Source: Lachnospiraceae bacterium
Lineage (GTDB): Bacteria; Bacillota; Clostridia; Lachnospirales; Lachnospiraceae
Reading direction: 5' to 3'
Length of the DNA: 64,000 nucleotides
NCBI GenBank assembly: GCA_018384375.1
Contig: JAHAYJ010000079.1
Span: 1-64,000 of the forward strand
A program made the translations under genes and the position numbers. The notes beneath the pieces were generated by a model. That model was not told where the DNA came from, searched no databases, and worked only from the letters and a program-made list of their open reading frames with translations. Shown here piece by piece: positions 332-33,334 of this stretch. Position 1 is the first letter of the stretch. Each line of letters begins with the position of its first letter.

Positions 332-383
332 TATCGCAGAATGCATGAGCTGGTACAAAGCGGGGAGCTGGGAGAAATCAAGC
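332..383 (+). repeat. 52-bp inverted repeat, left copy
   Basis: This 52-bp stretch is a perfect reverse complement of 33283-33334. It codes for the same oxidoreductase segment (RRMHELVQSGELGEIK) in both places, on opposite strands. Homology between the two sites ends sharply on each side. Confidence 0.95.
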
Positions 384-1099
384 GGGTCAACTGGATTATC
401 ACAGATTGGTACCGTACGCAGTACTATTATAATTCCGGAGACTGGAGAGGAACCTGGGACGGAGAAGGCGGCGGCGTTCTGCTCAACCAGTGCCCTCATC
501 AGCTTGACCTTTTACAATGGATTTGCGGTATGCCGGAAAAGGTAAGGGCATATTGTCATGAGGGGAAATGGCATGATATTGAAGTAGAAGATGATGTGAC
601 GGCGTATCTGGAATATCCGAACGGTGCGACAGGTGTTTTCGTGACCTCCACGGGAGAGGCACCGGGAACCAACCGGTTTGAAATCGATTTGACAAAGGGC
701 AGGCTTGTGTGTGAAAAGGGCGTTTTAAGCTGCTATCGGATGGAGGATGAAAGAGAATTCATGTTCTCTGCCACGGAGGGCTTTGCCATGCCGAAGGGAG
801 AAAGCTTCGACCCGGAACTGGACGGAAAGAATCCTGACCATCAGGGCGTAATGCAGGCATTTGTCAATCGCATTTTATTCGGCACTCCCCTGGTGGCTGA
901 AGGAACAGAGGGTATCAGAGGGCTGACCCTTTCCAATGCGATTCATTTGTCAAGCTGGCTGGGACGTGAGGTGACAATCCCTCTGGATGAGGATCTTTTC
1001 CTGGCAGAGCTGAACAAAAAGCGGGCAACCTCAAAAAAGAAGACCAATGTGAAGGAGGTGACGCTTTCCACGGAAGGGACTTATGGTACGTATAAATAA
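332..1099 (+). pseudogene. Gfo/Idh/MocA oxidoreductase, C-terminal fragment
   Basis: The frame encodes the C-terminal catalytic part of a Gfo/Idh/MocA-family NAD(P)-dependent sugar oxidoreductase. Typical features are the GGGVLLNQCPHQLDLLQW segment, whose His lies in the substrate site of the family, and a following beta-sheet domain ending in a Lys-rich tail. The Rossmann half with its GxGxxG nucleotide motif and EKP motif is missing. The frame is open from about 290, but residues before position 332 do not look like this family. The matching N-terminal segment lies on the opposite strand at 33283-33520 and overlaps by exactly 52 bp, so one gene has been split. The fragment probably is not a functional enzyme. 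It was likely the first gene of the adjacent glycan locus. Confidence 0.85.
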
Positions 1100-1267
1100 A
1101 CCTGAGGACGACATATAAAAAATCAATTTTGCTGCAGGATATATCAATCGGAGAAGATAATTTATCAATATGTTAAAAGGAAATATCATTGCAGGGAACG
1201 TGGCGGCAGGTACTATGAAAATAGAATGTGCCCGCGCACGGTACCTGGATAACAGGAGATAAATAAT

Positions 1268-3301
1268 ATGAAATTTATGTTTTCTGCCAGAAGCAAAGAA
1301 CAGGACGATGAGGATTATCTGTCTTTGGAGAAACAGAATTTATGTGCGGAGTGGGAGCAAACAGGCGGAGAAGGGAATCCGCAGTCGCCCTACAAGGTAA
1401 AAATCAGAATTCAGAATCAGGCAGAGCAACCTTGGGAAGGTGTGATTTTGACAGAACTGCTGGCGGAAAAAAGGAATCCGGCCTTTTTCCTGCCGGGTTT
1501 TATGTACGGATCGAACAGAGGGGACTGCCCGCAGAATGTTCCCTGTGAATATCCACGCATGCGGGAAGGAGGGCTGCAGAGACCGTCTTCCTCCTGGTGG
1601 ATGGTGCGGGGTGACCGGCTTTCTGCTCCGGTGGCACTTTTTTTTGACTGCGGCAGAGTGACGGGGCTTTCCGTCGGATCCTATTGGATTGTAAAAGACG
1701 GAAAAAAGAAGGTCTGGGAAAAGGAAACGGAAGAGGCAGAGTTCTGTCAGTACGCCGGTTATACCTGCAGTCTGAGAAGTAAAGAAAAGGACGGTACCTG
1801 CAGCGTTGGCTATACACTTGGTTATGAAAATGCTCCCTGGCTCTTTATTCAGTCCCATCAGGTAAAGGATAGGGATGAAATGGGGGATAACTGCTTCCGG
1901 TTGGAGGCAGGTGAAGCGGTGGAGTTTACCGTAAATGTTTTTTCTTATCCGGCACAGGATGAAACGGGAATCCATGAAGCAATCCGTCAGGTTTACGCAC
2001 AGTACCATCAGAAGCCCCGTAAAGGGTGCAGCCTGAAAGAGAGTGTGGCGGAAATAGCCGGTGCAATCAGCAGATGTGCATGGCTGGAAGAGGAAAAAAT
2101 GTATTCCGGTTTTGTCTTTCAACAGGCGGACGGAAGTTATACTTATAATAAACTGGGTTCCCTTACCTGGACGAACGGGCTTTCCGTGGCGGTTCCCATG
2201 CTGATGGCGGGAATCCGTCTGGGACATGAAAAAATGCGCAGGCAGGCGCTTGCCTGTATTGAAAATATACTGGCAAATTGTTGGAATCCGTTTTCGAAGC
2301 TGCCCTATGACGCGGTGTCTGACGGAAAGTGGAGTATTCGCGGCTGGTGGTTTGACGGGATGCATACACCGGGACACAGTGCCTATCTGACGGGGCAGGC
2401 AATGTATTATATATTGAAGGCTTATCAGTTTGAAAAAGAAAGGGCGAGCTGTGAACATAAGGAGTGGCTTAGTTTTGTCAGACCGGTTCTGGCAAAGGTG
2501 GAGCAGGAGAAGAATTCGGAGTATGAATATCCCTGTATTTTTTCGGAAAAGACAGGAGCTGGACTGGAGTATGATGCTTTCGGGGGCGTGTGGTGCCTGG
2601 CAGCAGGTGCTTACTATGCGTGGTTGACAGGGGATACTTCTTTTCTGGAGGGCTTATGTAAAAGTGAAGCCCATTATTATGAGCGATATGTCAGGCATGT
2701 GGTATGCTATGGGGCACCGCTTGATACGGATAAGGCGGTGGATTCCGAGGGTATTCTAGCTTATATCCGCGCGGTGCGTTATTTGCATCAAATGACAAAA
2801 GAAGAAAAATATCTGAAGCATATGCACGCAGCGCTGGATTATGAATTTTCCTTTAAATTCTGCTATAATTCACCGATTCAGATTCCGCCGCTCAGTCGTG
2901 TCGGCTGGTCCAGCTGCGGCGGCAGCATCACCTCCACGGCGAATCCGCATATTCATCCCATGTCGAGTACCATTGTGGATGAGATGGTGTATTATGTCAG
3001 GGAGACACAGGATTCTTACGTCAGAAACCGTATGATGGATACGGTTTTGTGGGGATGTCAGACCTTTAACACCTACGACGGAGAGTATGACTACGGGGAA
3101 AAGGGCTGGATGTCCGAGCGGTTCTGCTACAGTCAGGGACTGGTGGTACAGCCTTATGAGGACGGCAGCCTGGCAAGCACCTGGTTTGCACTGATGCCCT
3201 GGGCAGGCGGCAGCGTGGTAGAGGGTCTGGCCGGTGACGCCTGGGATATTTTGGGGAGAGGCATAAATGGGAAGAATAAACTCAATCTGAATCGTGAGTG
3301 A
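1268..3301 (+). CDS. putative glycosidase-like protein, unassigned family
   Basis: This 677-residue protein has no visible signal peptide or membrane segment. The first 250 residues or so look beta-rich. The remaining 400 look helical and full of aromatic and Gly/His clusters (for example [19 protein letters not shown] and [19 protein letters not shown]). That arrangement recalls the (alpha/alpha)6-barrel glycosidases and lyases with an N-terminal beta-sandwich. I cannot assign a GH family or point to catalytic acids with confidence. It sits between an oxidoreductase remnant and a chemoreceptor at the head of a hemicellulose locus, so a role on an oligosaccharide side chain is an inference. 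ATG follows a weak AGGAG-like site (aggagataaat). Confidence 0.6.
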
Positions 3302-3351
3302 CAATTTATATAAAGTGTGGAAGATGCTCTGGCAAAGGAGGAAAAGATTTT

Positions 3352-5400
3352 ATGAAGAACAGAAAGATGAGTACGGTAATTACAGTGACAATTTCTCTGG
3401 TGATGGCGGCCTGTCTGCTTTTGCTGTTCCTGGTGTCCAACCGGAATATGTGCACGTCCATGCAGGAATCTGCAATGGAAAATATGTCAACCTCGCTGGC
3501 AGCAAAGTCGGAAATTGTGGAACAGTATGTGGATTCAGCAGAAAAGCTGCTGATTTCTTTCAGCAAGGCACCGGTGGTGGCAGAATTCCTGAAGAATCCG
3601 GGCAATGCGGAGCTGCAAAAGAAAGCACAGGATTACACGGAGAGTTATTTTGCCGGTCTTGAGGGCTGGGAAGGAATTTACATATCGGAATGGAACACCC
3701 ATGTCATTGCGCATTCCAACACGAGTGCGGTGGGAATGGTGATGCGTGAGGGAGAATCCCTTGAAAAGCTGCAGAACTCCATAACGGCAGCCGGTGATGT
3801 TTACAATACGGGAATGATAATATCTCCTGCATCCAAGCGGATGGTACTGTCTCTCTATGCACCGGTTTATGACAAAGACGGAAGCACAATTCTCGGTATT
3901 GCGGGAGGCGCTCAACTGGCGGAAACCCTGCAGTCAGTATTGGAAGGACTGCATGTTGAGGGTATGGAAAATGCGAAGAACTATATGATTAACACGGAGA
4001 AGGAAGTGCACATTTTCAATGAAGATGCGTCACTCATGGCGGCACCCATTGAGGATGAAATGTTGCTTTCCGTGATAGATGCCATCCGCAGCAATTCTGC
4101 CGAAGTCACAGGAAGTCTTGAGTATGTGGATGGAGACGGCGTAAAGAGCGTTGCCATGTACAGGGCAATACCGGAACGAAACTGGGCGGTTGTTGTCAGT
4201 GACAGCAAGGATGAGATTTTTGCGAAAGCGGATGCCAGCAGAAATGCTTTTGGCTTGATTTGTATTTGTGTTTATGCGGTGATTCCCATCCTTTGCTACC
4301 TTGCCGTAAGCCTTTGTGTAAAACCTCTGAAGGTGGTGGAGAAAGCAGTAGTCAGACTTCAAAAGCTGGAACTGGAAGCACCGGAAGAATTGAAAAAGTA
4401 TATCGGAGCCGGAAGCGAAGCAGGTCAGATTGCCACCGCCATGGATTCCCTGTATGAAACCTTCCGGAAGATTGTATCCACTTTGCGAGAGTGTACTGCA
4501 ACCCTGAATGATTCCACAGATAAAATGAACCATGCATCACATATGCTGATTAAAGGAATGGGAGATAACTCAGCGACGACGGAAGAGCTTGCTGCCAGCA
4601 TCACAACAACAAACAGCGCCATTGAGCAGGTGGTAAATGAGATTCTGACCATATCCGAGCTGGTTGAGAAGGTGGAGGAAAAGGTGAAGGCAGGTGACCG
4701 GAAGAGTGAAAATCTGCTGGAGACGGCGCAGAGTATGCGTGAAATGGCGGATACCACACTGACCGGAACCGGAGAGAGAATCGAAAAGAACCGAAAGCAT
4801 GTGGAAGATGCCATGGTGAACCTGAAGTCCCTTACCCGTATCAATGACATGGCAAAGCAGATACTCGACATTGCGAACCAGACAAACCTGCTCTCCCTGA
4901 ATGCTTCCATTGAGGCCGCCAGAGCAGGTGAAAACGGAAGAGGATTTGCGGTTGTGGCACAGGAAATCGGAACCCTGGCTTCCAACTCTTCCGCAACGGC
5001 AAGGGAGATACAGGATATTTGTAAGGATATTAATGATAATATTCAGAATGTACAGGGATGCATCGATGACATCATGGGATTCATGGAGGGGGATGTATCC
5101 GATAAGTTCAAGGAATTTGCAAACATTGCAAATGAGTACAGTACTTCTGTGGTAGAGATTCGAGATGCTATCGGAGAGATAGAAGATACTTCGAACGGTG
5201 TTGTAAATTCTGTAATGAGTATCCGTGAGAAGATGGATGTGATACATACTGCCTCATCGGAAAATGAAATCGGTGTGGGCGAAATCGTCAATAAGATTGA
5301 GCAGACCAATCAGACGGCAGAGGAGCTTGAGAGCGTAGGAAAAGCAAATCAGGAAAATGCCCAGGCCATCAGCACAATCGTAGAAAAATTCAGCGAATAG
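3352..5400 (+). CDS. methyl-accepting chemotaxis protein
   Basis: This 682-residue chemoreceptor has a TM helix at about residues 7-29 and an extracytoplasmic Cache-like sensor region from about 30 to 299. A second TM helix at about 300-322 is followed by a HAMP-like linker and a long helical signalling domain. The conserved hairpin tip ([20 protein letters not shown], then [10 protein letters not shown]) lies near residue 510. The open frame starts earlier at 3298, but ATG 3352 has a strong AAAGGAGG site at 3334-3341 and begins the proper TM helix, so I use it. It lies in the same direction as the hemicellulose genes, 50 bp after the 677-aa protein, which suggests that it senses a plant sugar or its binding protein. 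No CheA/CheW or flagellar genes are in view. Confidence 0.9.
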
Positions 5401-5428
5401 ACGAATGATATGAAATAATGAGCAGGGG

Positions 5429-6259
5429 TTATTGCCCCGACTCAATAAATTCCCTTCCACCCAGAGTATAATGGGTGGGAGGGTTTTCTGTTTTATCCCT
5501 GAGAGCGTTTTTGCGGTATTGTCCCGGCGTGCAGCCGTTGTGCTGGCGAAACTGTCGGCAGAAGTGCTCTACATTGTTATAGCCGCATCTCTCAGCGATT
5601 TCCCGGATGGAATATTCCGTATATTCCAGCAAATCCTGAGCGCGGCGAAGTCGTCCCTCAATGACATCATCCATGCAGGAGGAACCGAACTGCTTCCGGT
5701 AAAGTGTCTGGACATGGCTGGCACTCAAATGAAGTTCTTCCGCCATCCGGTTCACATTCCAGGAAAGCTGAGGATTGTTGTAGATTTTTTTATGCAGGGC
5801 AATCAGCTCGTGGGTGTGAAGGCTTACCGTGTCATTCAGGGTGCTCTCCCTAAGCTTCGAGAACAGGACACGAAGCAGGTGAGAAATATTTGCCGCGCTC
5901 TCAGAGGAAGAGAAGGAGGATTCCCAGGTCAGCAGCTTGAACAGCTGATGGCAGTATTCGGGGTCGGTGACAGAAAAAGGAACATTCCGGAGCGGAAATT
6001 GTTCCACGAAGGAATGGTCGGAGCGGAAACGAATCCAGTCGTTTCGATATTCCTCTCCGGCGGCACGGTAATAGATTCTGCATCCGGGCGTGTACAGAAT
6101 GGCGGTATTGGCAGAAACACGCACGATTTTGTCCTCTGTCAGCAGCTCTGCTGCAGAAGTGATAAACAGCAGAAGGTAGCCCGCGAAACCATTTGGCACA
6201 TCATAGACAAAATTGTCGGGGTGAACAGCACTGTATCCGATAAAATCAATTTCATTCAT
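5429..6259 (-). CDS. AraC family transcriptional regulator
   Basis: This 276-residue regulator has an N-terminal cupin-like sensing region and a C-terminal double helix-turn-helix (NRMAEELHLSASHVQTLYRK and IREIAERCGYNNVEHFCRQF, ending in the family motif GCTPGQYRK). ATG 6259 is chosen over the upstream start because GAGGAG precedes it on the minus strand. It is divergent from the GH39 operon across a 218-bp control region and converges on the chemoreceptor. AraC regulators placed this way usually activate the adjacent sugar operon when ligand is bound. A truncated near-duplicate is found at 52903-53670. Confidence 0.9.
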   Translation of the reverse strand: MNEIDFIGYSAVHPDNFVYDVPNGFAGYLLLFITSAAELLTEDKIVRVSANTAILYTPGCRIYYRAAGEEYRNDWIRFRSDHSFVEQFPLRNVPFSVTDPEYCHQLFKLLTWESSFSSSESAANISHLLRVLFSKLRESTLNDTVSLHTHELIALHKKIYNNPQLSWNVNRMAEELHLSASHVQTLYRKQFGSSCMDDVIEGRLRRAQDLLEYTEYSIREIAERCGYNNVEHFCRQFRQHNGCTPGQYRKNALRDKTENPPTHYTLGGREFIESGQ

Positions 6260-6477
6260 TGTTACTTTTCTCCTCAAGTTCTGCAAATCGCGCCTCTTTC
6301 AAAGTTACGGCAGGAAGGTTTATGCTCCGCAAATTACAAAGTCAAAGTGCTCTGCCGCAGACTCATAAGCTGTGTCATCAAAGAATACATCAATTATTCT
6401 ATAGTATAAATCATTGAAAACAGGCGGTCAATGAGATAGTATCAAATTATATCAATCAATAAATGGGGGATACGCTC
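6260..6477. promoter_or_regulatory. divergent control region between AraC regulator and GH39 operon
   Basis: This 218-bp AT-rich spacer holds both start regions. A TATAGT/TATAAA element lies at about 6400-6408 for the rightward operon, but no good -35 is visible, as is usual for activator-dependent promoters. Partial repeats of ATCAATTAT-like sequence at 6389-6460 could be regulator half-sites; this is a guess. The ribosome site TGGGGGA (6464-6470) sets the GH39 start at 6478. Confidence 0.5.
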
Positions 6478-8212: not shown

Positions 8213-9001
8213 ATGGCAGTTGGAACTTTTGATTTTTTTTCGGATTGTCTGAGAAGGAATACTACCTTCCGCATTATTCTGCCCAATGAGGAGGATGTCA
8301 GGGAGGGGAGCGCGAAGGAGCCCATGAAGACATTGATTTTGCTGCACGGATATTGCGGCGGCTGTAATGAGTGGCTCTGGTACGGAAACGCAGTGGACAT
8401 GGCACAGAAATATCATTTGTGCATCGTACTTCCTACGGGAGAAAACAGCTTTTATCTGGATGGAAAAGAGACGGGAAGACAGTACGCAACTTATATTGGC
8501 AGAGAACTGCTTCAGTATGTCAGGAAGACTTTCGGGCTTTCCGAAAGATGCGAGGATACCTTTATCGGGGGCTTCTCCATGGGGGGTTTTGGTGCTATCC
8601 ATACGGCGCTGCAGTTTGCGGATACTTTTGAAGCTGCAATCGGTTTGTCCTCGGCGTTGATTGTACATGGCATTAACGGGATGAAGCCCGGTGAAGGAAA
8701 TGAGGTGGCAAACTATGACTATTACAAGCTGATGTTTGGTAATCTGGATTCTCTGGAAGAGAGCAATGCCAACCCGGAAAAGCTGGTATGTGAGTTGAAG
8801 GAGAGGGGAGAGGAACTTCCCAGGTTCTATCTTGCCTGCGGAGAGCAGGATTTTCTCTTGCAGCCCAACAGAGATTTTGCGGCTTTCCTTCAGGCTTATG
8901 GAGTTGATTTCTGCTATTTTGAGGGTCCGGGAGAACATAACTTTGATTATTGGAATAAGCATCTGGAGCCGGGAATTCAGTGGATTCTGAACAAGGCATA
9001 G
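8213..9001 (+). CDS. alpha/beta-hydrolase esterase (esterase D/tributyrin esterase type)
   Basis: This 262-residue alpha/beta hydrolase belongs to the esterase D-like group used in many xylan loci to remove acetyl or hydroxycinnamoyl groups. The nucleophile elbow is GGFSMGGFG. The oxyanion region LLHGYCGG lies near the start, an Asp is in ACGEQDFLL and the catalytic His is in GPGEHNFDYW. There is no signal peptide, so it acts on imported oligosaccharides. ATG 8213 is preferred to 8204 because AGAGAGG (8197-8203) would abut the earlier start. It follows GH39 by 115 bp and precedes GH31 by 12 bp. The exact substrate (acetyl or feruloyl) cannot be told from the sequence. Confidence 0.85.
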   Translation: MAVGTFDFFSDCLRRNTTFRIILPNEEDVREGSAKEPMKTLILLHGYCGGCNEWLWYGNAVDMAQKYHLCIVLPTGENSFYLDGKETGRQYATYIGRELLQYVRKTFGLSERCEDTFIGGFSMGGFGAIHTALQFADTFEAAIGLSSALIVHGINGMKPGEGNEVANYDYYKLMFGNLDSLEESNANPEKLVCELKERGEELPRFYLACGEQDFLLQPNRDFAAFLQAYGVDFCYFEGPGEHNFDYWNKHLEPGIQWILNKA

Positions 9002-18658: not shown

Positions 18659-20617
18659 ATGGATAAATCAGCAATTTTGCCGGACGGGAGTAGTTTTACA
18701 TTCTGGGAAGTACCTGTGGAATATGAGAGGGAGATTCATGTAAACAGAAATCATCCCATGGCAGATGATACAAATGAAGGTACTTTGGAAAAGCCGCTTG
18801 CTACCATCAATGCAGCAGCACAGCTTGCGAAAGCGGGGACGCGCGTATGGATTCATGCCGGGGAGTATCGGGAGTGGGTTCGTCCTGCAGCCGGAGGCAC
18901 TGACCCGGCACATATGATAAGCTATGAGGCTTTCGGAGATGGCGAGGTGGTCATCAAAGCTTCTGAGCAGGTGTTTGATTTTAAGTCCAGTACAGGCTGG
19001 CGCATGCAGGCGGATTTCAATGAGGAGATAGACAGGGAGAAAATCCGGATTTGGGAATACTGCCTGGCACCGGAGCTGTTTCAGGGGTACAATCCCTTCT
19101 GTGCAGTCAATATTCTGCACGACAGATTATTCATTGAATATGAGAAAACGGATATGACTACCTATCTGAATCGCAGAGGCATGGTATTCTGTGACGGGAA
19201 ACCTCTGACCCAGGTGGCTCTTTACAATCAGCTTTCGAAATGTGAAGGAAGCTATTGGGTAGAGGCAAACGGGCAGAAGGTGCACTTCAGACTGGAGAAG
19301 GATGCAGACCCGAAGGATCATTGCATTGAGGTCACCTGCAGGGAGCAGTGTTTTGCTCCTGATATTCCGCTCCTTTCTTATATTAAAGTAAAAGGAATTA
19401 CCTGTGCCCATGCGGCGACCGGAGCGCCGGTGCCTCAGAGGGGAGCAATCTCCTGTTACAGAGGACATCACTGGGTGATTGAGAATTGTACGGTGGACTG
19501 GTCCAACGCGGTGGGAATCGATGTGGGCAATGAATGCTGGCATCATGAGCTCATCCCCGGACAGCAGATCGGTTATAGTGTTGTCCGTGGCTGTACCATC
19601 AAAGATGCGGGAGTTTGCGGCATTGCGGGATTGTTTGCTACCCATATGCTGATAGAAGATAATCTGATTGAAGGAACCGGCTGGCAGAAAATGGAGCTTT
19701 CCTGGGAGGCGGGGGCAATCAAGCTGCATAACAGTGTGGACGGTCTGTTCCGCCGTAATGTTTTCCGGAATACCTTCCGTGCCGACCATCTCTGGCTGGA
19801 CTGCGGAAATGAGAACAATCGGATTACCGGAAATCTGTTCCTGGACGGTATTGAGCAGAGAGAAGCCATCTTTATCGAATGCACCAGAGACGGCGTGAAT
19901 TTGATTGACAATAATATCATCTGGAATGTGGAGGGGCGGTTTGATCCGAAAAAAGTTCCCGTAGAGCCGGGTTCCTCAGGTTGGTATAAAATGGAGGAGC
20001 ACGATGTGGTTAACGGCTATGGCATTTACGGGGAAGGAACGGATCATCTGCGCATTGTCAACAATCTCATCGGTAACTGCCGCAGCGCGGGATATTTTGC
20101 AAAACCGGTTGCCTTCCGTATGCATGGCTTGGAGAGGGGCGGTACTTCCCGGGATGCGCACCTTTTGAACAATCTGTTCTATCACTGTGAGGAAGCGGCC
20201 ATGAAGCTTCCGACAAAGGATAATCTTTGTGAAGGAAACTGTTATGTCAAGGAAGAAGGCGGCTATCTGAGAATTCTTTATCCGCAGCCTCCGGTATGCC
20301 TGCATCTGCCTGCCTGGAAGGAATTCTATGGCTTTGACAGGCAGGGACAGGAAGCCTGGTTTGATATTAAGGTGGATACCCAAAAGCTTACAATTCAATT
20401 TTCAGAGTCGGAGAAAAAGCCCTTTGCTTTCCCGGGAGAACTGGAAAAACGCCATTTTGTGTTCCGACCGGAAGAAACAAACAAGACGGAGGCAAGTCCG
20501 CTGGTACAGACAGACTTTTACGGGACAGAGGTGCAGGATGACAAATGCCTGCCGGGACCTTTTGCAGAACTGACCTCGAATCAGGTCTACGCAATAGACC
20601 CCAGAAAAGAAGCATAG
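18659..20617 (+). CDS. right-handed beta-helix protein, GH141-like
   Basis: This 652-residue protein opens with a DUF1565-like segment (EIHVNRNHPMADDTNEGT, then LEKPLATINAAAQLAKAG). It continues with repeated beta-helix coils (HWVIENCTVDWSNAVGIDVG, MLIEDNLIEGTGW, LFRRNVFRNTFRADHLWLD, ITGNLFLDGI, LRIVNNLIGNC). Such proteins in plant cell-wall loci include GH141 fucosidases/xylanases and polysaccharide lyases. Neighbours favour a xylan-acting GH141-like role, but I see no diagnostic catalytic motif that I can verify. ATG 18659 or TTG 18647 could be the start; GAAAGG at about 18640 is imperfectly spaced for both. It heads the unit that runs to 33078. Confidence 0.7.
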   Translation: MDKSAILPDGSSFTFWEVPVEYEREIHVNRNHPMADDTNEGTLEKPLATINAAAQLAKAGTRVWIHAGEYREWVRPAAGGTDPAHMISYEAFGDGEVVIKASEQVFDFKSSTGWRMQADFNEEIDREKIRIWEYCLAPELFQGYNPFCAVNILHDRLFIEYEKTDMTTYLNRRGMVFCDGKPLTQVALYNQLSKCEGSYWVEANGQKVHFRLEKDADPKDHCIEVTCREQCFAPDIPLLSYIKVKGITCAHAATGAPVPQRGAISCYRGHHWVIENCTVDWSNAVGIDVGNECWHHELIPGQQIGYSVVRGCTIKDAGVCGIAGLFATHMLIEDNLIEGTGWQKMELSWEAGAIKLHNSVDGLFRRNVFRNTFRADHLWLDCGNENNRITGNLFLDGIEQREAIFIECTRDGVNLIDNNIIWNVEGRFDPKKVPVEPGSSGWYKMEEHDVVNGYGIYGEGTDHLRIVNNLIGNCRSAGYFAKPVAFRMHGLERGGTSRDAHLLNNLFYHCEEAAMKLPTKDNLCEGNCYVKEEGGYLRILYPQPPVCLHLPAWKEFYGFDRQGQEAWFDIKVDTQKLTIQFSESEKKPFAFPGELEKRHFVFRPEETNKTEASPLVQTDFYGTEVQDDKCLPGPFAELTSNQVYAIDPRKEA

Positions 20618-20703
20618 AAAGCGCGTCTGCAATCAGACATGCAGGTCTTAAGGCGAAGGAACATAATTCTGAAATGAGAGAAGCGAAAAGGGGATTGGGG
20701 CAT

Positions 20704-23316: not shown

Positions 23317-23344
23317 GAGAAGGAAATGAGAAGGGGGACTATTG

Positions 23345-25831
23345 ATGAGTAAGCTGCAAATAAAAACAAGAGAGAAGCGATTTGAGACGGCGAAGGATCT
23401 TTACGGTATTTTTTTCGAGGATATCAACCGGGCGGGAGACGGAGGCCTCTATCCCGAAATGATCAGAAACAGAAGCTTTGAGGATTCCATTCTCCCGGAA
23501 GGGTATACACTGCAGGAGGATGGCATTCATGTAAAGACAGATTCCGGCTGGCTGGATGAATTCTGCCATGGGGAGGGCTTAACCCGGTGGATCAGGGACA
23601 ATCATATCGAAGAAACACCGATTCCGGCCTGGTATACAGAGAATGCTGTCATGGAGCTGGAGAGGAAAGATACCCTGAACGAGAACAGAAGTGCAGCCCT
23701 GAGAGTGCGGTTTGAAGCAGGCGGCTTCCTGTACAATACGGGATTTTGCGGAATTGCCGTAGAGCGGGGAGCAAAGTATCCCCTTTATCTGTTTGCAAAA
23801 GCGGAGGAACCCTTGGAACTGGAGGTTTCGATTGAAAATGAGGAGCATTGCTTTGCCCGGAACAATCTGATGATTTCCCGGGGCGGGTATACCCGGTATG
23901 ATGTTACATTGGAAGCGAACGGTGACTGTGCGGATGCCAGACTTATGCTTCGGTGCAAAGAGGGCGGTGAGGTGCTGCTTGGATTCCTTTCCCTGATGCC
24001 CCAAAAAACCTACAACGGGCACGGACTTCGTCAGGACCTGGTGGAAAAACTGCGGGATCTGCATCCGAGATTCATGCGCTTCCCCGGTGGTTGTATTGTA
24101 GAGGGAACCACGCCCTCCACAGTGATGAAATTCCGCAATACGGTGGGACCGGTCTGGGAGCGTCCCGGACATCTTCTGGTGTGGCATTACCGGAGCTATA
24201 TGGGTCTTGGTTTTCACGAGTATCTGCAGCTGTGTGAGGATCTGGATATGGAGCCCATGTATGTGTGCAACTGCGGAATGACCTGTCAGGGAAGAAACTG
24301 TGTCCTGCTGGAGGGGGAAGCGCTGGAGGAAATGCTGCAGGATACACTGGATGCCATTGAGTATGCCATCGGACCGAAGGAGAGCAGATGGGGAAAGCTA
24401 CGTGCTTCTATGGGGCACCCGGAACCCTTTAAGCTGACCTACCTGGAAATCGGAAATGAAAACTGGGGACCGGATTATGAGGAGCGCTATCGGAAGTTTT
24501 ATGCGGAAATCAAAACGCGCTACCCGCAGATCAAAACCATTGCCAATGCCCATGTGGAGGAGAACGGCTGCCCGGCGGAGTGTGTGGATGAGCACTTCTA
24601 TAATACAACGGAGTTTTTCGCGGAAAACATGCATTACTACGACAATTACGACCGAAAGGGTCCGAGGATTTTCGTGGGTGAACAGGCAGTAAATGAAGGC
24701 GTTTACATGGGAAAACTGTATGCGGCTCTCGGTGAGGCAGCCTTTTTGATTGGTATCGAGAGAAATCAGGATGTTGTTGCACTGTCTGCATATGCACCTT
24801 TGTTTGAAAATGTAAATTATGCCGCCTGGTTCCCGAATCTGATTCGTTTCAACAATCATCAGAGTCTCGGAATCCCTACTTATTATGTCTGGAAAATGTT
24901 TGGACAAAACAGGGGAGAAAGTGTGGTACACTCAGAGGAGGAGACCGGGTTAATTTACAGACCCCGTGAAGGCATGGCATCTCTGAAATCTCAAAAAAGG
25001 CTTCGGTATCGCAATGCTCTATGGAACGGGGAAGGCACCGAAGTGACGCGTGAGCTGATGGGACATGTGGCGGAGACGGAAGACGGATTTGTCGTGGAAT
25101 TGCCGGATGAAGAGCAAAAGGAAGAGTTCCGTAAGATTTTGAACTGGGCAGATGAAAGCAAAAGTCTTGTGGTGTTTGGTGAAGAGGATCAGACTTGCGG
25201 AAAATTTGAAGTGGACATTTTTGTGGAGGAGGATGCTTCCTTTGAACTGGGAGTGTTCAGTGCCAGAGTGGTACGCTCTTATTACGACCAGCTGTTGGTG
25301 ATGACAGCAGGAGTCGAGAAGGACTGGTATGCGGCGCTGGTTCGACCATTTCTTTGGAAGATTCAGGGAAACCATTGTTCTTTTGAGGAATTTGGTTTCC
25401 TGCAGGACAAAAAGCTGACAGAGGACTTTTCCATATCCATTAGTCCCGGAGTCTATCACAGGTTCGGCTATGAGACGGACCAAAAACAGATTCGACTGTT
25501 CCTGGACGGGGAGCTGCAAAAGGAGATTGCAGTACCTTCCAGTCCCTCCTTTGCATCGGTCACCTGTGATACCGAAGACGAGGTAATCATCAAAGCAGTA
25601 AACCTCTCGTCCGAGACGGATACAGTGCAAATCAGCCTGGACTGCGAGGTGGAGAGCGAATACACGGTGACGCTGCTTACGGGAGACAAGGATGCGGCTA
25701 ACAGCTTTGAAGAACCCGAAAAAGTGCATGACGTTACCTTAAAGAAGCAGGGAGCTTCGATGGAATTCTGTTATGAAGCACCACGGTATTCTGTCAGTGT
25801 ACTGCGGCTGAAGAAGAGGAAGTCAGTGTAA
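23345..25831 (+). CDS. GH51 alpha-L-arabinofuranosidase
   Basis: This 828-residue retaining enzyme of family 51 removes alpha-L-arabinofuranosyl side chains. The N-terminus has the family signature LYGIFFEDINRAGDGGLYPEM (21 residues, shortened in use to FFEDIN). A carbohydrate-binding-like insert follows, then the barrel with acid/base Glu about 372 in EIGNENWGP and nucleophile Glu about 446 in FVGEQAV, then a C-terminal beta-sandwich. The long form (about 800) with the inserted domain is common in Lachnospiraceae. No signal peptide. ATG 23345 follows AGAAGGGGG. It continues the 18659-33078 unit, 28 bp after the esterase fusion. Confidence 0.92.
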   Translation: MSKLQIKTREKRFETAKDLYGIFFEDINRAGDGGLYPEMIRNRSFEDSILPEGYTLQEDGIHVKTDSGWLDEFCHGEGLTRWIRDNHIEETPIPAWYTENAVMELERKDTLNENRSAALRVRFEAGGFLYNTGFCGIAVERGAKYPLYLFAKAEEPLELEVSIENEEHCFARNNLMISRGGYTRYDVTLEANGDCADARLMLRCKEGGEVLLGFLSLMPQKTYNGHGLRQDLVEKLRDLHPRFMRFPGGCIVEGTTPSTVMKFRNTVGPVWERPGHLLVWHYRSYMGLGFHEYLQLCEDLDMEPMYVCNCGMTCQGRNCVLLEGEALEEMLQDTLDAIEYAIGPKESRWGKLRASMGHPEPFKLTYLEIGNENWGPDYEERYRKFYAEIKTRYPQIKTIANAHVEENGCPAECVDEHFYNTTEFFAENMHYYDNYDRKGPRIFVGEQAVNEGVYMGKLYAALGEAAFLIGIERNQDVVALSAYAPLFENVNYAAWFPNLIRFNNHQSLGIPTYYVWKMFGQNRGESVVHSEEETGLIYRPREGMASLKSQKRLRYRNALWNGEGTEVTRELMGHVAETEDGFVVELPDEEQKEEFRKILNWADESKSLVVFGEEDQTCGKFEVDIFVEEDASFELGVFSARVVRSYYDQLLVMTAGVEKDWYAALVRPFLWKIQGNHCSFEEFGFLQDKKLTEDFSISISPGVYHRFGYETDQKQIRLFLDGELQKEIAVPSSPSFASVTCDTEDEVIIKAVNLSSETDTVQISLDCEVESEYTVTLLTGDKDAANSFEEPEKVHDVTLKKQGASMEFCYEAPRYSVSVLRLKKRKSV

Positions 25832-25931
25832 TTAAAAGCAAATGAGGATAAATCCGGAGTGCGAAGAAGCCGGATAGAAACTGAACGGAAACAGAAAATG
25901 CTGAAATGGAAGCAAAAACGGAGAAAAAAGG

Positions 25932-27344
25932 TTGAGTTTACTGGTAAAAGATAAGGATTTTTACAAAAATACGGCGGCAATTGCCATCCCGATTTCCCTG
26001 CAGACCATGATTACCATCGGGGTCAATATGATGGACACCATCATGGTTGGAAAGCTTGGAGAGACAGCGTTGTCAGCCACGGCGCTTGCCAATCAGTTTG
26101 TGACCATTTATCAGATATGCTGTATGGGTGTCGGCATGGGGGCGAGCGTTCTGACGGCGCGTTTCTGGGGAATGCAGGATATTTCTTCCCTGAAGAAGAC
26201 AATTACTCTGATGTTACGCCTTTGTATGGGACTGGCGGTGTTGTTTATGCTTCCCACTATCCTGACGCCGAATTTTCTGATGCGGATGTATACGGCAGAT
26301 GAGGCGGTTATCGTGCAGGGATGTCTGTATTTTAAGTGGATGATTTTCTGCTATCTTCTACAGGGAATGGCATTGACCTGTACGATTGTGCTTCGGAGTG
26401 TGGGGCAGGTTAAGCTACCGCTGATTACGTCAATCGGTGCCTTCTTTGTGAACATTTTCTTTAACTATACATTTATTTTCGGTAAATTCGGGGCACCCAG
26501 GATGGAGGTTCAGGGTGCCGGTATAGGCACTTTGATTGCCCGTCTTTTTGAATTTGCGCTGATTTGCGGTTACTTTCTGTTTGCGGACAGAAAAATCGGG
26601 TATCGGTTCAGGGATTTGTTTTTGAAATGCAGGTCTCTGCTTCGGGATTATATTTCCATCAGTATACCGGTCTTTATCTCGGATTCACTGCTGGCGCTGG
26701 GAAATTCTGCGGTGGCAATGGTTATGGGACGAATCGGTACGAGCTTTGTGTCTGCCAATTCCATCACGGTGGTGACACAGCAGCTGAGTACGGTGGTCAT
26801 TCAGGGAATCTGTCATGCCGGATGTATTCTGACCGGTCATACCCTCGGAAGAGGGGAGCGGGAGAAGGCACAGCAGCAGGCATGGACCTTTCTTGTACTT
26901 GGGGGTGTCATCGGACTTCTGGGTGGGGGCATCATCAAGCTGGTAAGCGATCCGGTCATCGGATTGTACAATATTACGGAGGAAACACAAAAAATAGCAG
27001 GTCAGTTGATGAATGCAATCGCCTTTATCGTCGTCTTTCAGTCCATGAACAGCATCCTCACAAAGGGAGTGCTGCGGGGCGGCGGAGATACAAAGTTTTT
27101 GATGGTGGCAGATATTTTGTTTTTATGGGTGGCTTCTCTGCCACTGGGCGCATTGGCAGGGCTTGTCTGGCACACGAATGCATTTTGGATATATGTGTTG
27201 CTGAAAATTGACCAAATCTTAAAATCAGTTTGGTGTATTTTCCGTTTGAGAAGCGGGAAATGGATAAAAAACATATCATCAGGGGAGGTAAAAGATGCAA
27301 AGCAGGCTGAATCAGGCAGTGACGCTGTATCCGCTGTTTTTTGA
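25932..27344 (+). CDS. MATE family efflux transporter
   Basis: This 470-residue membrane protein has about twelve TM helices in two halves. Family motifs are TIGVNMMDTIMVGKLGE near the start and FVSANSITVV in the second half. MATE proteins export cations, drugs or metabolites using Na+ or H+ gradients; a sugar-related substrate is not established. The frame begins at TTG 25932 after AAAAAAGG, with no ATG that would keep the first helix. Its last 50 bp overlap the start of the tandem esterase gene. Its position inside a glycan operon suggests export of a by-product such as released hydroxycinnamic acids, which is inference only. Confidence 0.88.
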   Translation: MSLLVKDKDFYKNTAAIAIPISLQTMITIGVNMMDTIMVGKLGETALSATALANQFVTIYQICCMGVGMGASVLTARFWGMQDISSLKKTITLMLRLCMGLAVLFMLPTILTPNFLMRMYTADEAVIVQGCLYFKWMIFCYLLQGMALTCTIVLRSVGQVKLPLITSIGAFFVNIFFNYTFIFGKFGAPRMEVQGAGIGTLIARLFEFALICGYFLFADRKIGYRFRDLFLKCRSLLRDYISISIPVFISDSLLALGNSAVAMVMGRIGTSFVSANSITVVTQQLSTVVIQGICHAGCILTGHTLGRGEREKAQQQAWTFLVLGGVIGLLGGGIIKLVSDPVIGLYNITEETQKIAGQLMNAIAFIVVFQSMNSILTKGVLRGGGDTKFLMVADILFLWVASLPLGALAGLVWHTNAFWIYVLLKIDQILKSVWCIFRLRSGKWIKNISSGEVKDAKQAESGSDAVSAVF

Positions 27345-29625
27345 CCCCATTTATAAGCGGGCACAGTTTACGAAAAAAGATGGAAAGGAAAGTATCGGGT
27401 ACTGTGAGGACAGACCGGGCATCCTTGTTGCGGAAAATGGGGATGTGACTTTTTCCATGTATGCACCGGAGGCAGAAAGTGTGGAAGTTGCCGGTGTGGG
27501 CGGCAGTATGGGGAAAGAAAAAATTGTTCTGGTGAAGGACTCGGAGGGGTATTTTACCACAACGGTATCGGGAATTGCACCGGGATTTCATTATCATGAC
27601 TGGTTTGTGGACGGGGTATGTGTGAGAAATCCCATCGCACCGTTTTGCTACGGCTGTTTTGGTGCCAAGAATTTCTTTGAACTTCCTGCACCCGGTCAGG
27701 ATTTCTGGTTTTTGAAGGATGTGCCCCACGGTGATGTGCAGCTGCACAAGTACGTCAGCAGTGTCAACGGACATATGAAGAGCTGCTATGTTTACACGCC
27801 GCCTTCTTATGAAAAGAGTGACCGTAGTTATCCGGTTTTATATATCATGCATGGAGTGGGGGAAGATGAAACCGGCTGGATTTGGAACGGTAAGCTGAAT
27901 TTTATTATGGATAATCTGATTGCAGAGGGTAAGTGCCGTGAGATGCTGGTGGTGGTATGCTGTAATTATGCCTTTTGTGATGGAGAGAAGGCTGTCTTTT
28001 ATCCCGGAGATTTTGACAGAGAGCTGACGCAGGATTGTATCGGCTATGTAGATTCTCATTTCAGAACCGTACCGGACAGAAGACGCAGAGCAGTAGCGGG
28101 CTTGTCTCTCGGTTCCGCCCAGGCGTTGCTTGCCGCTTCAAACCATCAGGATCTGTTTGGAGACCTTGGTATTTTTTCGGGTGTTCGAACAGATGAGATG
28201 GAGCGGTTGATTTCCCGGCATGCCGAATGGCCCATGGAGTATGTTTTCCTAGGATGTGGAGAGGGAGAAACGGAGCTTGCACGCAAACAGGAGGAGTATA
28301 CGAAGCAGTGTGAGCTTGCAGGCATACCGGTGGGGCACAGAACCTATACAGGATACCATGAATGGCATGTTTGGAGAGAATGCTTGCGGGATTTTGTACA
28401 ACAGATTTTCCGAACGCATTTGGAAGAATCCTTCTTAACAACTGCCGGTCGCGCTGATTGGGAGGAGAAAAAAATCCCGGAGGAAACCCTTGACCGGCAG
28501 ACCTGGCGGGAGCACATGCTGTTCTTTGACCCGATTGACAAGGGGCTTATTTTCGAGTTTGATGAAAAGGGACAGCCAAACGGCCGCTATATTGATGTGC
28601 CGCCGGGGGAACGGGTGATGGATTCCGGCAAAGCGGTATTCCGTATCCCTGCAAAGGGTGCAAAAACGGTGGAAATTGATATCTGGGGAATGGGAAGGTT
28701 CCCGCTTGCACCGGAAAGGACGGAAACGGAGGAGACGGGCTTCTGGATGGGAGAAGTATCCGGCATTGAGCCGGGATTTCATTATTATACCTGTATTGTG
28801 AATGGGACAGCGGTGGTAAATCCTGATGCGCCAGTGGGTTACGGCGGCTTCCGGACAGTCAATTTCCTGGAAATGCCGGAGGAGAATTTTGAAGAATATC
28901 GTCTGAGGCAGGTTCCCCACGGAACTGTTCATATACAGTATTACCGCTCCGGGCAGACGGGCAGATGGAAGCTGTGCTATGTCTACACACCGCCCGCATA
29001 TGAAGAGCATCCAGAGAAGCGTTATCCTGTTCTGTATCTGCAGCATGGCGGCGGAGAGGACGAGATGGGCTGGCTTTGGCAGGGCAAGATTGCCCATCTG
29101 GCGGATAATCTGCTGGCAAAGGGACAGATGCGGGAAATGATTATCGTGATGAACACGGGATACGGCTTCCCGGAGGCGGGTAGCTGCCATCCTTCCATGA
29201 GTGCTTTTCTGGAAGAATTGCCGGAGAGCTGCATTCCCTTTATCGACAGCACCTTCCGGACGATTCCCGACAGGGAACATCGTGCCATGGCAGGACTGTC
29301 CATGGGTGGTATGCAGACCCAGAAAATTGTTTTCGCACATCCGGAGCTGTTTGCGTCGGCAGGCATTTTCTCCGGCGGACTCGTTCTGCAGAATGACGAG
29401 GAGGATTACCGGGACATTTTGTTGGATAAAAAGGAGTTTGCGGAGCGATTCCGACTTCTGTTTGTGGCCTGCGGAACCCGGGAGAACTTCTATCAGGTCA
29501 CGAAAGAAAATGCCGAAAAGGTGCTGGAAGCAGGTGTGCCGATTGAGACCTTCTGGGACTACGGCTACCATGACTGGACCTTCTGGAGACATTGTGCAAA
29601 TAGGTTTCTGAGATTATTATTTTAG
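27295..29625 (+). CDS. tandem CE1 esterase (two CBM48-like/esterase modules)
   Basis: This 776-residue protein contains the same architecture twice. Residues 1-375 have an E-set/CBM48-like beta domain (about 45-130) then a CE1 alpha/beta hydrolase with nucleophile Ser271 in AGLSLGSAQ. Residues 400-776 repeat this with Ser669 in AGLSMGGMQ. Each module has LYIMHG/LYLQHG oxyanion loops and a C-terminal YHEWHVW or YHDWTFW His. CE1 includes feruloyl and acetylxylan esterases, and the beta-domain plus CE1 layout is typical of feruloyl esterases. There is no signal peptide. The ATG with AGGGGAGG lies 50 bp inside the MATE gene, giving translational coupling. Confidence 0.88.
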   Translation: MQSRLNQAVTLYPLFFDPIYKRAQFTKKDGKESIGYCEDRPGILVAENGDVTFSMYAPEAESVEVAGVGGSMGKEKIVLVKDSEGYFTTTVSGIAPGFHYHDWFVDGVCVRNPIAPFCYGCFGAKNFFELPAPGQDFWFLKDVPHGDVQLHKYVSSVNGHMKSCYVYTPPSYEKSDRSYPVLYIMHGVGEDETGWIWNGKLNFIMDNLIAEGKCREMLVVVCCNYAFCDGEKAVFYPGDFDRELTQDCIGYVDSHFRTVPDRRRRAVAGLSLGSAQALLAASNHQDLFGDLGIFSGVRTDEMERLISRHAEWPMEYVFLGCGEGETELARKQEEYTKQCELAGIPVGHRTYTGYHEWHVWRECLRDFVQQIFRTHLEESFLTTAGRADWEEKKIPEETLDRQTWREHMLFFDPIDKGLIFEFDEKGQPNGRYIDVPPGERVMDSGKAVFRIPAKGAKTVEIDIWGMGRFPLAPERTETEETGFWMGEVSGIEPGFHYYTCIVNGTAVVNPDAPVGYGGFRTVNFLEMPEENFEEYRLRQVPHGTVHIQYYRSGQTGRWKLCYVYTPPAYEEHPEKRYPVLYLQHGGGEDEMGWLWQGKIAHLADNLLAKGQMREMIIVMNTGYGFPEAGSCHPSMSAFLEELPESCIPFIDSTFRTIPDREHRAMAGLSMGGMQTQKIVFAHPELFASAGIFSGGLVLQNDEEDYRDILLDKKEFAERFRLLFVACGTRENFYQVTKENAEKVLEAGVPIETFWDYGYHDWTFWRHCANRFLRLLF

Positions 29626-29660
29626 TGGTAAGATTTTTTGGTGAAAGGATGTAGGCTGAT

Positions 29661-31523
29661 ATGATAATGGAATTAAAGGGAAAGAACGTGCGCCTGAAGG
29701 AAGGAGAACTGTTGCGCAGAGAGGAATCGAACAGAGAGTATCTGATGAAACTGGAAAACAGATATCTTCTGCGGAATTATCTGCTGGAGGCGGGAAGGTA
29801 TTCCGGCAGGGGAATGGATGAGAATGCCATGGGCGGCTGGGAAGACCCGACCTGCCAGCTGCGAGGTCATTTTCTGGGACATTGGCTGTCTGCCGCGGCG
29901 CTTCGGTATCAGGAGACCGGTGATCTGGAATTGAAGGCAAAGGCAGAGACGATTCTGGAGGAGCTTGCCCTTTGCCAGATGGATAACGGCGGAGAGTGGG
30001 CAGGACCGATTCCGGAAAAATACCTGTACTGGATCGGAAAAGGAAAGAGTGTCTGGGCACCACAGTATACGCTCCACAAACTGTTTATGGGACTTGTGGA
30101 TGTCTACAGGCTGATGCAGGTAGATAAAGCGCTGGAGATAGCGGAAAAGTTCGCCGACTGGTTTGACCGGTGGAGCGCGGGTTATACAAGAGAGGAATTT
30201 GATGCGATTCTGGATGTGGAGACGGGAGGCATGCTGGAGGTCTGGGCAGATTTGCTGGAGATTACCGGCAGGGACTGTTACCGGAGACTTCTGGAAAGAT
30301 ATTACCGGGGAAGATTGTTCGACCCGCTTCTTGAGGGAAAGGATGTTCTTACTAACATGCATGCCAATACGACGATTCCAGAGATTTTGGGGTGCGCAAG
30401 GGCTTATGAAGTAACCGGCGAGGAAAAGTGGCTTGCGATTACCAAAGCCTATTGGAAGTGTGCCGTGACAGACCGGGGATGTTTTGCCACGGGAGGACAG
30501 ACCCAGGGTGAAATCTGGACACCGAAGCAGAAACTGAAGGCCCGTCTGGGAGACAAAAACCAGGAACATTGCACGGTTTACAATATGATACGGCTGGCGG
30601 AGTTCCTGTTCCGGCAGACCAAAGATCCGGCTTATCTGCATTACATTGAATATAATGTAAGAAACGGGATCCTGGCACAGACCTACTGGCAGGGGGATTC
30701 CTGGCAGGGAAGTCCCGGAAAGGGACTCCTGACTTATTTCCTTCCCATGAAGGCACCGGCCCGTAAGGACTGGGCAGGGGAAATGGACAGCTTTTTCTGC
30801 TGCCACGGAACCATGGTGCAGGCAAATGCCGCGTGGAACCGGAGGCTGTATTATCAGGAGGACAGGCTGCTTTATGTGACAGCTTACGTTGACTCGGATG
30901 CCTGCTTTGAGGTGGCTGGGCAGAAGGTCGTACTGGAGCAGAGACAGGATAAGATGAACGGAAGTCTGATGAATTCTTCCGAAAATAATGTCAGCCAGAC
31001 TGTCAATGAGATTGCAAGTACCTTTGCAAACAAGCCGGATTTCCGTAAGTACATCTTTACGATTCATGCTTCTTCTCCGGTGGAGCTGGCGATCTTTTTG
31101 CGGATTCCGGATTGGATACAGGATGAGGCAGGGGTGTATGTGAACGGGGAGATGATTGCAAAGACAGCCTGTACGGAGCAGTTTTTCCCGCTGGAGAGAA
31201 CCTGGGAGGACGGGGACAAAATTGTGTTGACCCTGCCGGTGGGGTTACAGTTTATACCGCTGCCGGATGATCCGGATACAGGAGCGTTCAGGTACGGACC
31301 GGATGTACTGGCCGGGATTACAAAGCAGGAGAGGCTTCTTTGGTTGGAGAGTGAAAATCCCGTTGAGGAACTTTCCGCTGACACCGAGAGAGAGTGGGGA
31401 AATTTCAGAACTTTTTATAAGACGGAGAATCAGGATCCGGCCATTCATTTCAGAAAGCTGAATGAAATCGGTTATGAACCTTATCAGATTTACTTTAAAA
31501 CAAAGAAGCCGGGAAAACAATAA
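29661..31523 (+). CDS. GH127 beta-L-arabinofuranosidase
   Basis: This 620-residue enzyme of family 127 (DUF1680) has an (alpha/alpha)6 barrel followed by beta-sandwich domains. The zinc-thiolate active site known from HypBA1 (Glu338, Cys340, Cys417, Cys418, with Cys417 as nucleophile) is matched here by Glu302-His-Cys304 and Cys380-Cys381 with the same spacing. It would release beta-L-arabinofuranose, found in hydroxyproline-linked arabino-oligosaccharides and some complex side chains. No signal peptide. AAAGGATG lies upstream and the gene is 35 bp after the tandem esterase. Its substrate makes it the odd member of a xylan locus. Confidence 0.92.
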   Translation: MIMELKGKNVRLKEGELLRREESNREYLMKLENRYLLRNYLLEAGRYSGRGMDENAMGGWEDPTCQLRGHFLGHWLSAAALRYQETGDLELKAKAETILEELALCQMDNGGEWAGPIPEKYLYWIGKGKSVWAPQYTLHKLFMGLVDVYRLMQVDKALEIAEKFADWFDRWSAGYTREEFDAILDVETGGMLEVWADLLEITGRDCYRRLLERYYRGRLFDPLLEGKDVLTNMHANTTIPEILGCARAYEVTGEEKWLAITKAYWKCAVTDRGCFATGGQTQGEIWTPKQKLKARLGDKNQEHCTVYNMIRLAEFLFRQTKDPAYLHYIEYNVRNGILAQTYWQGDSWQGSPGKGLLTYFLPMKAPARKDWAGEMDSFFCCHGTMVQANAAWNRRLYYQEDRLLYVTAYVDSDACFEVAGQKVVLEQRQDKMNGSLMNSSENNVSQTVNEIASTFANKPDFRKYIFTIHASSPVELAIFLRIPDWIQDEAGVYVNGEMIAKTACTEQFFPLERTWEDGDKIVLTLPVGLQFIPLPDDPDTGAFRYGPDVLAGITKQERLLWLESENPVEELSADTEREWGNFRTFYKTENQDPAIHFRKLNEIGYEPYQIYFKTKKPGKQ

Positions 31524-31539
31524 AGGGAAAAGGAACACA

Positions 31540-33078
31540 ATGCAAATTAATCCGATTACCAGAATGGATTATCCGGATCCGGATGTCATCCGGGTCGAGG
31601 ATACCTACTATATGATCAGTACAACCATGCACTTTTATCCGGGAGGAGTCATACTGCGCTCCTATGACCTGATTCACTGGGAGATTGCGGGATATGTTTA
31701 TGACAAGCTGGACAGCACGCCGGAGCAGAGACTGGAGGGAGAAAAAAACAGCTATGGTCGCGGTATGTGGGCGGCATCACTGCGCTTCCATAACGGAAAA
31801 TTTTATGTCTGCTTCGGTGCGCTTGAGACCCAGAAAACCTATATCTATTCCGCAAAAGAAGTGGAAGGTCCATGGGAGCGGAAAGAACTGGAGGGCTATT
31901 ACCATGACAGCTCCCTGCTGTTTGACGGGGACGGAAGGGTTTATCTGGTTTATGGCAACAGGGAAATCAAACTGGTGGAGCTTAAGCGGGATTTGAGTGC
32001 TGTGAAGGAGGATGGCTTTAAACGAACGCTGGCAGTGGATCCGGATGATGTGATTTTGGGATATGAGGGCTCTCATTTGTATCATATCGGGAACAAATAT
32101 TATCTGTTCATGATCCACTGGCCGAAATACGGAGCAAATAGGAGAACGGAAGTCTGCCTTATGGCGGACTCCCTGGAAGGGGAATTTACCGGGGGAACGG
32201 TACTGGATGATGATATGGGATGCTTCAATCAGGGCGTGGCTCAGGGAGGAATCGTGGAAGCTACAGACGGAAGCTGGTATGCGGTTTTGTTCCGCGACAG
32301 CGGAGCTGTGGGCAGGGTGCCGGTGTTGGTGCCGGTGTCATGGAAGGATGGTTTTCCGGTATTTGGGGAAAACGGTGTCATACCGAGAGAATTCACAACT
32401 CCGGACAGCCGGCCGGGTTACAGATATGAGCCTCTGTATACGTCTGACGATTTTCGGTATGCTGCTGATGAAAAAGGACATTGCATCCTGAAAAAACAGT
32501 GGCAGTGGAATCATGAGCCGAACCCGCAGCTTTGGAGTATCTGTCCGGAGGGCGGGTTGCGGATTCAAACGGGAAAAATTTGTACCAATCTGACGCAGGC
32601 GGTCAATACCCTGACCCAGAGAATGATGTGGCCGGAATGCTCGGCAGAAGTGGCGGTTGATGTCTCGGATATCAGAGAGGGAGACATCGCGGGATTTTGT
32701 GCGCTGCAGGGCTGCTATGCGGCGGCATGCGTTTCCAGGGAAAAGAACCGTTTCTTCCTTAATATAATGGCGAAGAAACCGGAGGATGGGTTCAAGGGAA
32801 CGGATTTTACGGCAGACGACATTTCCGAAAAGGTGGAGATATTGAAACCGCTGGTGAGATTAAGGGCAATCGCAAATTTTGCGGATATGCGGGATACGGT
32901 GGAATTCTACTACGAAAGAGAAGGACAATGGAAAAAACTGGGTAAAACGTACAAGCTGTATTTTAAATTGGACCATTTTACGGGCTGCCGTTTTGGACTG
33001 TTCTGTTATGCGACCCGGGAAACAGGCGGAAGTGCGGTGTTCAAGGACTTTACGTATCACTATAACAGCAAGGAATGA
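31540..33078 (+). CDS. GH43 family xylosidase/arabinofuranosidase with C-terminal beta-sandwich
   Basis: This 512-residue family 43 enzyme has a propeller with the base Asp in MDYPDPDVI, a second Asp in YHDSSLLFD and the acid Glu in GYEGSHLYHI. The last 190 residues form a beta-sandwich of the DUF1349/laminin-G-like type seen in GH43 xylosidases (MWPECSAEVAVDVS and GCRFGLFCYATRE). An open frame begins at 31462 inside GH127, but ATG 31540 has AAAAGGA upstream and starts with the propeller. It is the last gene of the unit and is followed by a terminator. No signal peptide is seen. Confidence 0.9.
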   Translation: MQINPITRMDYPDPDVIRVEDTYYMISTTMHFYPGGVILRSYDLIHWEIAGYVYDKLDSTPEQRLEGEKNSYGRGMWAASLRFHNGKFYVCFGALETQKTYIYSAKEVEGPWERKELEGYYHDSSLLFDGDGRVYLVYGNREIKLVELKRDLSAVKEDGFKRTLAVDPDDVILGYEGSHLYHIGNKYYLFMIHWPKYGANRRTEVCLMADSLEGEFTGGTVLDDDMGCFNQGVAQGGIVEATDGSWYAVLFRDSGAVGRVPVLVPVSWKDGFPVFGENGVIPREFTTPDSRPGYRYEPLYTSDDFRYAADEKGHCILKKQWQWNHEPNPQLWSICPEGGLRIQTGKICTNLTQAVNTLTQRMMWPECSAEVAVDVSDIREGDIAGFCALQGCYAAACVSREKNRFFLNIMAKKPEDGFKGTDFTADDISEKVEILKPLVRLRAIANFADMRDTVEFYYEREGQWKKLGKTYKLYFKLDHFTGCRFGLFCYATRETGGSAVFKDFTYHYNSKE

Positions 33079-33098
33079 GAAGGGTAAGCCGTGTGAGA

Positions 33099-33150
33099 GA
33101 AACAGACTGCTGTGTTTTGACACAACAGTCTGTTTCTTGTTGTGGTTTTT
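33099..33150 (+). terminator. terminator of the long hemicellulose unit
   Basis: GAAACAGACTG (33099-33109) pairs perfectly with CAGTCTGTTTC (33126-33136), continued by a TGTG/CACA inner stem, then TTGTTGTGGTTTTTT. From here to 33282 I see no further gene. Confidence 0.85.
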
Positions 33151-33282
33151 TGTGGAAAGATGACATTTTGCACATTGTTCATAAAGAAACGGCTGATATG
33201 TTGCACACATTTAACAAAAGAATGGCAGATATTAAAGGAATAATAGCAACCATTGAGAAGACAAGAAAGCAATTTTTAGGTA

Positions 33283-33334
33283 GCTTGATTTCTCCCAGCT
33301 CCCCGCTTTGTACCAGCTCATGCATTCTGCGATA
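33283..33334 (-). repeat. 52-bp inverted repeat, right copy
   Basis: This is the exact reverse complement of 332-383. Together the copies bracket 32.9 kb (384-33282). Beyond the 52 bp the flanks differ completely. Confidence 0.95.

Follow-up and report, generated by a model that had tools for sequence, protein, structure and literature searches.

The window considered here, i.e. the whole analysed stretch of 64,000 nucleotides, comprises bases 1-64000 of a contig of 68,497 bp and carries near its left end a 33-kb segment bounded by two copies of a 52-bp inverted repeat (Table 1). The order from left to right is X-R-B ... Y-R'-A', with primes marking the reverse complement, and 331 bp separate the left repeat copy from the contig end. 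The genes between the two copies match GH39, GH31, two GH43, an alpha-L-arabinofuranosidase, GH127, esterases and an ABC transporter, accompanied by a LacI regulator, AraC regulators on the minus strand and MatE. Judged from these families, the locus points to arabinoxylan or a related hemicellulose as substrate. Inside the hydrolase locus, 3298-5397 encodes a chemotaxis-receptor-like protein with an MCP signalling domain, in which the match to a cache domain remains below the cut-off. One of the AraC-family regulators (5429-6286, minus strand) is 77% identical over 300 bp to another in the far part of the window (52903-53808, minus strand).

Table 1. Features of the repeat-bounded segment and its flanks, in window coordinates.
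Feature	Coordinates	Strand	Remarks
X, mobile-element-like left flank ending at the left joint	1..331	+	matches to phage, plasmid and genus records
R, left repeat copy	332..383	+	Gfo/Idh/MocA codons YRRMHELVQSGELGEIK
B, C-terminal portion of the divided Gfo/Idh/MocA gene	384..1099	+	open to the stop; 82.8% to L015
Hemicellulose/arabinan-type locus in the putatively inverted segment	1268..33078	+	family matches
Y, right end of the putatively inverted segment	33079..33282	+	hairpin 33098-33137, then AT-rich, GC 0.32 over 33138-33282
R', right repeat copy	33283..33334	-	same 52 bp, reverse complement
A, central portion of the divided gene with the end of the Rossmann domain	33335..33505	-	57 codons; first ~76 codons absent
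Integrative-element-like block beside the right joint	33534..39609	+	Fic, SRAP, DinB-type polymerase, HTH protein, tyrosine integrase, 3' part of tRNA-Arg(CCT)

Self-comparison of the window confirms that R and R' are exact reverse complements (52/52), as the original prediction had stated. They form the longest exact inverted repeat of the window, and a chance match is ruled out by this length, as the longest such repeats in three base-shuffled windows reach only 14-17 bp. A third copy was not found in the genome itself (3.11 Mb, 125 contigs) with a 149-base query that starts with the repeat.

The two repeat copies divide one gene. The open reading frame 290-1099 on the plus strand displays the Gfo/Idh/MocA C-terminal domains PF22725 and PF02894 on 290-1096, while the minus-strand frame 33550-33179 contains the last part of a Rossmann domain. 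The closest relative found is a gene on L015, a Lachnospiraceae metagenome contig (92% protein identity, query residues 1-252); it comes from a different species that is devoid of the hemicellulose locus of the window, and the comparison covers the gene only. In L015 both gene halves are contiguous and in frame around a single copy of R, with about 82% identity in either half: L015 9830-10052 matches 33505-33283 at 81.6%, and L015 10001-10746 matches 332-1077 at 82.8%. Domains and contiguous homologue together bear out the earlier claim that a single Gfo/Idh/MocA gene is split by the repeat. The additional claim that an inversion of 384-33282 would rejoin this gene is correct as far as the contiguity of the halves in L015 is concerned, but the rejoined gene would still lack about 76 codons. 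This number replaces a previous figure of about 65 N-terminal residues; it assumes that translation in L015 begins with the ATG at 9602 and counts all codons upstream of the first one that A retains. At the right-hand side the recognisable Gfo sequence stops near 33505, and 33505 to about 33533 has no assignment. The N-terminal ~76 codons had no match in the own genome. The remainder of the gene, used as query, was recovered there, but an empty result of this kind shows little by itself. Other Gfo copies of the same genus are more distant (matches in 25 of 60 genomes including the own one, the best other copy being 73% identical). A second Gfo-like stretch is present upstream of the gene in L015, at 8861-8969, and is 80% identical to 391-499.

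Comparison of B, counted from 332, with L015 yields a dN of 0.033 and a dS of 1.67 over 245 codons; the 57 codons of A hold 28 synonymous and 3 non-synonymous differences from L015, and their dS is saturated. We interpret this as an indication that the gene has been under ordinary purifying selection until recently. Neither A nor B contains stops or frameshifts, so the split itself looks recent. The repeat shares this pattern: R is identical to L015 at 42 of 52 positions, and 9 of the 10 differences fall on third codon positions. Among sliding 52-base windows over the 917 bases compared with L015 the mean is 42.8 identical positions, and 73% of these windows equal or exceed R. This ordinary similarity and the predominance of third-position differences imply that R evolved as plain coding sequence. 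The conservation of R does not exceed the gene average and its best dyad symmetry is at background (9 pairs, where 400 random 52-mers from the window average 10.2), in contrast to what conservation or symmetry of a recombinase site would lead one to expect. R carries no mark of such a site.

The gene beside the broken one (1268-3298) encodes a 677-residue protein without a Pfam or NCBIfam match, whose homologues were detected in 4 of 391 other genomes of the order (E 1e-20). In one of them, G192, an ABC transporter, a solute-binding protein, GH39 and the 677-residue protein adjoin each other in an order that differs from the one in the window, and part of the locus content is thus common to both in another arrangement. 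No Gfo match was found at E 1e-6 in the three of these four neighbourhoods that were scanned (54 kb in G192), the contig of the fourth genome being 4,147 bp long. In the L015 genome, matches to 20500-40400 are scattered over several separate contigs, the strongest being the SRAP-DinB stretch with 74%, and no copy of the window's hemicellulose locus was found there. Since no relative among the scanned neighbourhoods and the L015 genome was found to possess both the Gfo gene and the hemicellulose locus, the direction of any inversion has to be read from the gene alone. Third-position GC skew gave no preference for either original orientation.

The left flank X is composed of sequences known from mobile elements and from the genus. 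Positions 1-122 are 92% identical to MT839798.1, a record from a phage collection from human stool, 58-121 are 92% identical to a plasmid record of Agathobacter rectalis, 119-300 are 97.8% identical to a contig of another genome of the genus, and 206-309 share 88% identity with a stretch of the window that follows the integrase gene (39247-39351). The last ~22-26 bases of X (306-331) match none of the sequences compared. X is consequently best described as a mosaic with ~22-26 unplaced bases beside R, and more than one event may have been involved on this side; it possibly contains the end of an unrecognised element. A promoter-like site (TCGACA-17-TATAAT, 238-266, 11/12 match) is directed into the locus, although such sites are frequent in this region (7 found in 1-1400 versus 2.6 expected). 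The present orientation leaves this putative promoter pointing into B and the locus.

Y, at the opposite end of the segment, gave no long match in 36 other genomes of the genus, where besides itself and its own hairpin only matches of 24-39 bp in four genomes were recovered. Its last 145 bases likewise have no long match in 396 other genomes of the family (29-51 bp in four). Comparison of X and Y with the loci of relatives revealed no Gfo-like match of their own beyond the 52 bp.

Beyond the right joint follows the integrative-element-like block. Its first kilobase matches 21 of 391 other genomes of the order, and in two of these the match begins at 33534. The block includes a tyrosine integrase gene at 37700-38989, 4.4 kb from the right repeat copy, and its far end is formed by the 3' portion of a tRNA-Arg(CCT) gene (about 39568-39609) that is intact in one of the other genomes. 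The tRNA-Arg 3' end is the likely attachment site of the integrase and the likely integrase-side end of an integrative element. The own genome yielded no second copy of the tRNA-Arg(CCT) stretch, and hence neither the opposite end of the element nor a complete tRNA-Arg(CCT) with this sequence. Parts of 38987-39600 have similar sequences in 5 of 36 other genomes of the genus. Between integrase and tRNA-Arg 3' end, 39237-39609 holds a non-coding stretch of ~340 bp with a promoter-like site, complete or partial copies of which occur in 5 of 36 other genomes of the genus; as judged by eye, its start could pair with a downstream terminator. Inside it, a weak CRISPR-repeat-like match at 39374-39339 scores 25.0 bits, below the cut-off of 35. 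Further downstream an IS1182-family element (39826-41528) shows the same 24-base palindrome-like sequence GAGAGCACTGTAAAACAGTGCTCT at both ends. According to a passage in PMC5678879, IS1272 replaces stem-loops at its target; by analogy, it is possible that the element at 39826-41528 shares this habit.

We consider it probable that the 33-kb segment results from a single past inversion, of which the 52-bp inverted repeat is a by-product and not the cause. In the ancestor, X would have been joined to Y', and A-R-B would have been unbroken at the other end. Two breaks are envisaged, one between X and Y' and one in the gene. The latter would have left a stagger of 52 nucleotides, although a copying process of equal effect would serve as well. 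The segment would then have been rejoined in reverse, and filling-in of both staggered ends would have left a copy of R at each joint in opposite orientations, i.e. X-R-B at the left and A-R-Y' at the right in one event. Two observations fit this scenario in particular: one sequence is present at both breakpoints in opposite orientation (52/52), and the source locus is single and uninterrupted in L015, which applies to the gene only. The lack of a Gfo-like match in X and Y is expected if only R was copied. The first ~76 codons have been replaced by the integrative-element junction, for which reason the gene was probably dead already or was killed in the same upheaval, the order of these events being our reconstruction. 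The un-inverted X-Y' junction is spanned by no match among the loci compared. Of the three options that had been put forward, a relic of one inversion has the best support.

It is unlikely, in our view, that one joint, most probably the left one, is an artefact of assembly or library, being either unreal or joined from another strain. The left joint does lie only 331 bp from the start of a draft contig in an assembly of 125 contigs, no match among the loci compared spans R together with X or Y, and neither joint was found in another genome. Exact-pattern scans of viral contigs are equally empty for R, of which an exact 30-base piece is absent, and for Y, the tail and promoter-like site of X, and the edge of the Fic block. 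These points have to be weighed against the contig ends of the assembly. Among 40 ends of 20 contigs (36 readable, overlap threshold at least 21 bases), two pairs overlap by exactly 127 bases each, flush with the ends. We take such exact overlaps to indicate a de Bruijn assembly whose word length was 127, so the assembly word was probably far longer than the repeat. A repeat of 52 bp should by itself not confuse an assembly with words of this length, and a false join at the repeat would need real reads that carry it, which makes the suggested flip of the assembly at a short repeat unlikely. Moreover, one true A-R-B would hardly give rise to two spurious joints that share exactly R while A-R-B itself is absent. 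It had also been proposed that relatives with one copy of the repeat would indicate misassembly; this test needs rewording, as a one-copy relative is just what duplication with inversion predicts.

An older origin of the repeat appears improbable. Under this scenario the junction of Y and X already contained a 52-bp gene fragment, or a second inverted copy that was later trimmed, and the segment was flipped when the two copies underwent homologous recombination. The same end state would be explained, and a second Gfo-like stretch is indeed present upstream in L015 (8861-8969). However, an extra event is needed whose product coincides with the later site of recombination, and X and Y display nothing Gfo-like outside the repeat.

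Still more doubtful is a large invertible segment, in which the copies recombine by means of RecA or the nearby tyrosine integrase, both orientations coexist, and the locus moves relative to the promoter-like site in X. The perfect inverted repeat at both ends of the segment, the integrase gene lying 4.4 kb beyond the right copy and the promoter-like site just outside the left copy speak for it, and an identity of 52 bp should allow rare RecA-dependent reversal. By contrast, R is ordinary coding sequence without dyad symmetry, and the likely attachment site of the integrase is the tRNA-Arg 3' end rather than R. A mixed population is further expected to fork a 127-base graph at the joints, yet the contig crosses both. 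Phase-variable restoration of the gene is rejected, as the flipped gene would remain without its N-terminal ~76 codons, which have no match in the genome. Invertons of gut bacteria, as described in the part of PMC11892184 considered here, are likewise DNA bounded by inverted repeats, but these are 10-40 nt long and bound by an invertase; unlike them, the present segment measures 33 kb, has its 52-bp repeat within coding sequence and is known in one orientation. The original prediction's option of a large invertible segment thus finds no positive support beyond the repeat, with neither recombinase-site character nor a restored gene. Very improbable, finally, is that the segment flips at a low rate via the 52-bp copies, so that the repair scar acts as a crude reversible switch bringing the locus under or away from the mobile-element promoter in X. 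Inversion by an insertion sequence is dismissed because no transposase is recognised beside either joint and the sole IS1182-family element lies outside the segment; a transposon target duplication is dismissed as well, because target duplications flank the insert in direct orientation and the copies here are inverted.

A single inversion that duplicates its breakpoint sequence has counterparts in other organisms. Furuta et al. in 2011 reportedly described an inversion that had a duplicate at its breakpoints and a gene that died at one of them, and the present case resembles that system in both respects; unlike it, the duplicate is only 52 bp long, the flanks are mobile DNA, and the structure is known from the inverted order alone. 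DNA duplication associated with inversion is mentioned for Helicobacter and Thermus in sections of PMC4671568 and PMC8963470 that cite this work, which is also cited on the subject in parts of PMC6933940 and PMC3154945. In Drosophila subobscura, the account of O8 and five other inversions in a section of PMC5080602 describes duplicates that derive from one breakpoint only and lie inverted at both derived breakpoints. The staggered-break inversions of this species are similar to ours in that the inverted duplicate at both breakpoints traces to one original breakpoint. They differ in being eukaryotic, in having duplicates of 128 and 380 bp plus gene pieces, and in that both arrangements have been sequenced (same section of PMC5080602).

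The structure is real in the assembly and most likely represents a scar that one inversion left in a mobile and decaying neighbourhood; it is not evidence of a genetic switch. If confirmed, it would be a clean and recent case of a gut-type Firmicute in which an inversion generated the inverted repeat that bounds it. This calls for caution with methods that count every inverted repeat as a possible phase switch, because a long perfect repeat can be the result of an inversion. The case likewise shows a catabolic locus that has been rearranged among mobile elements.
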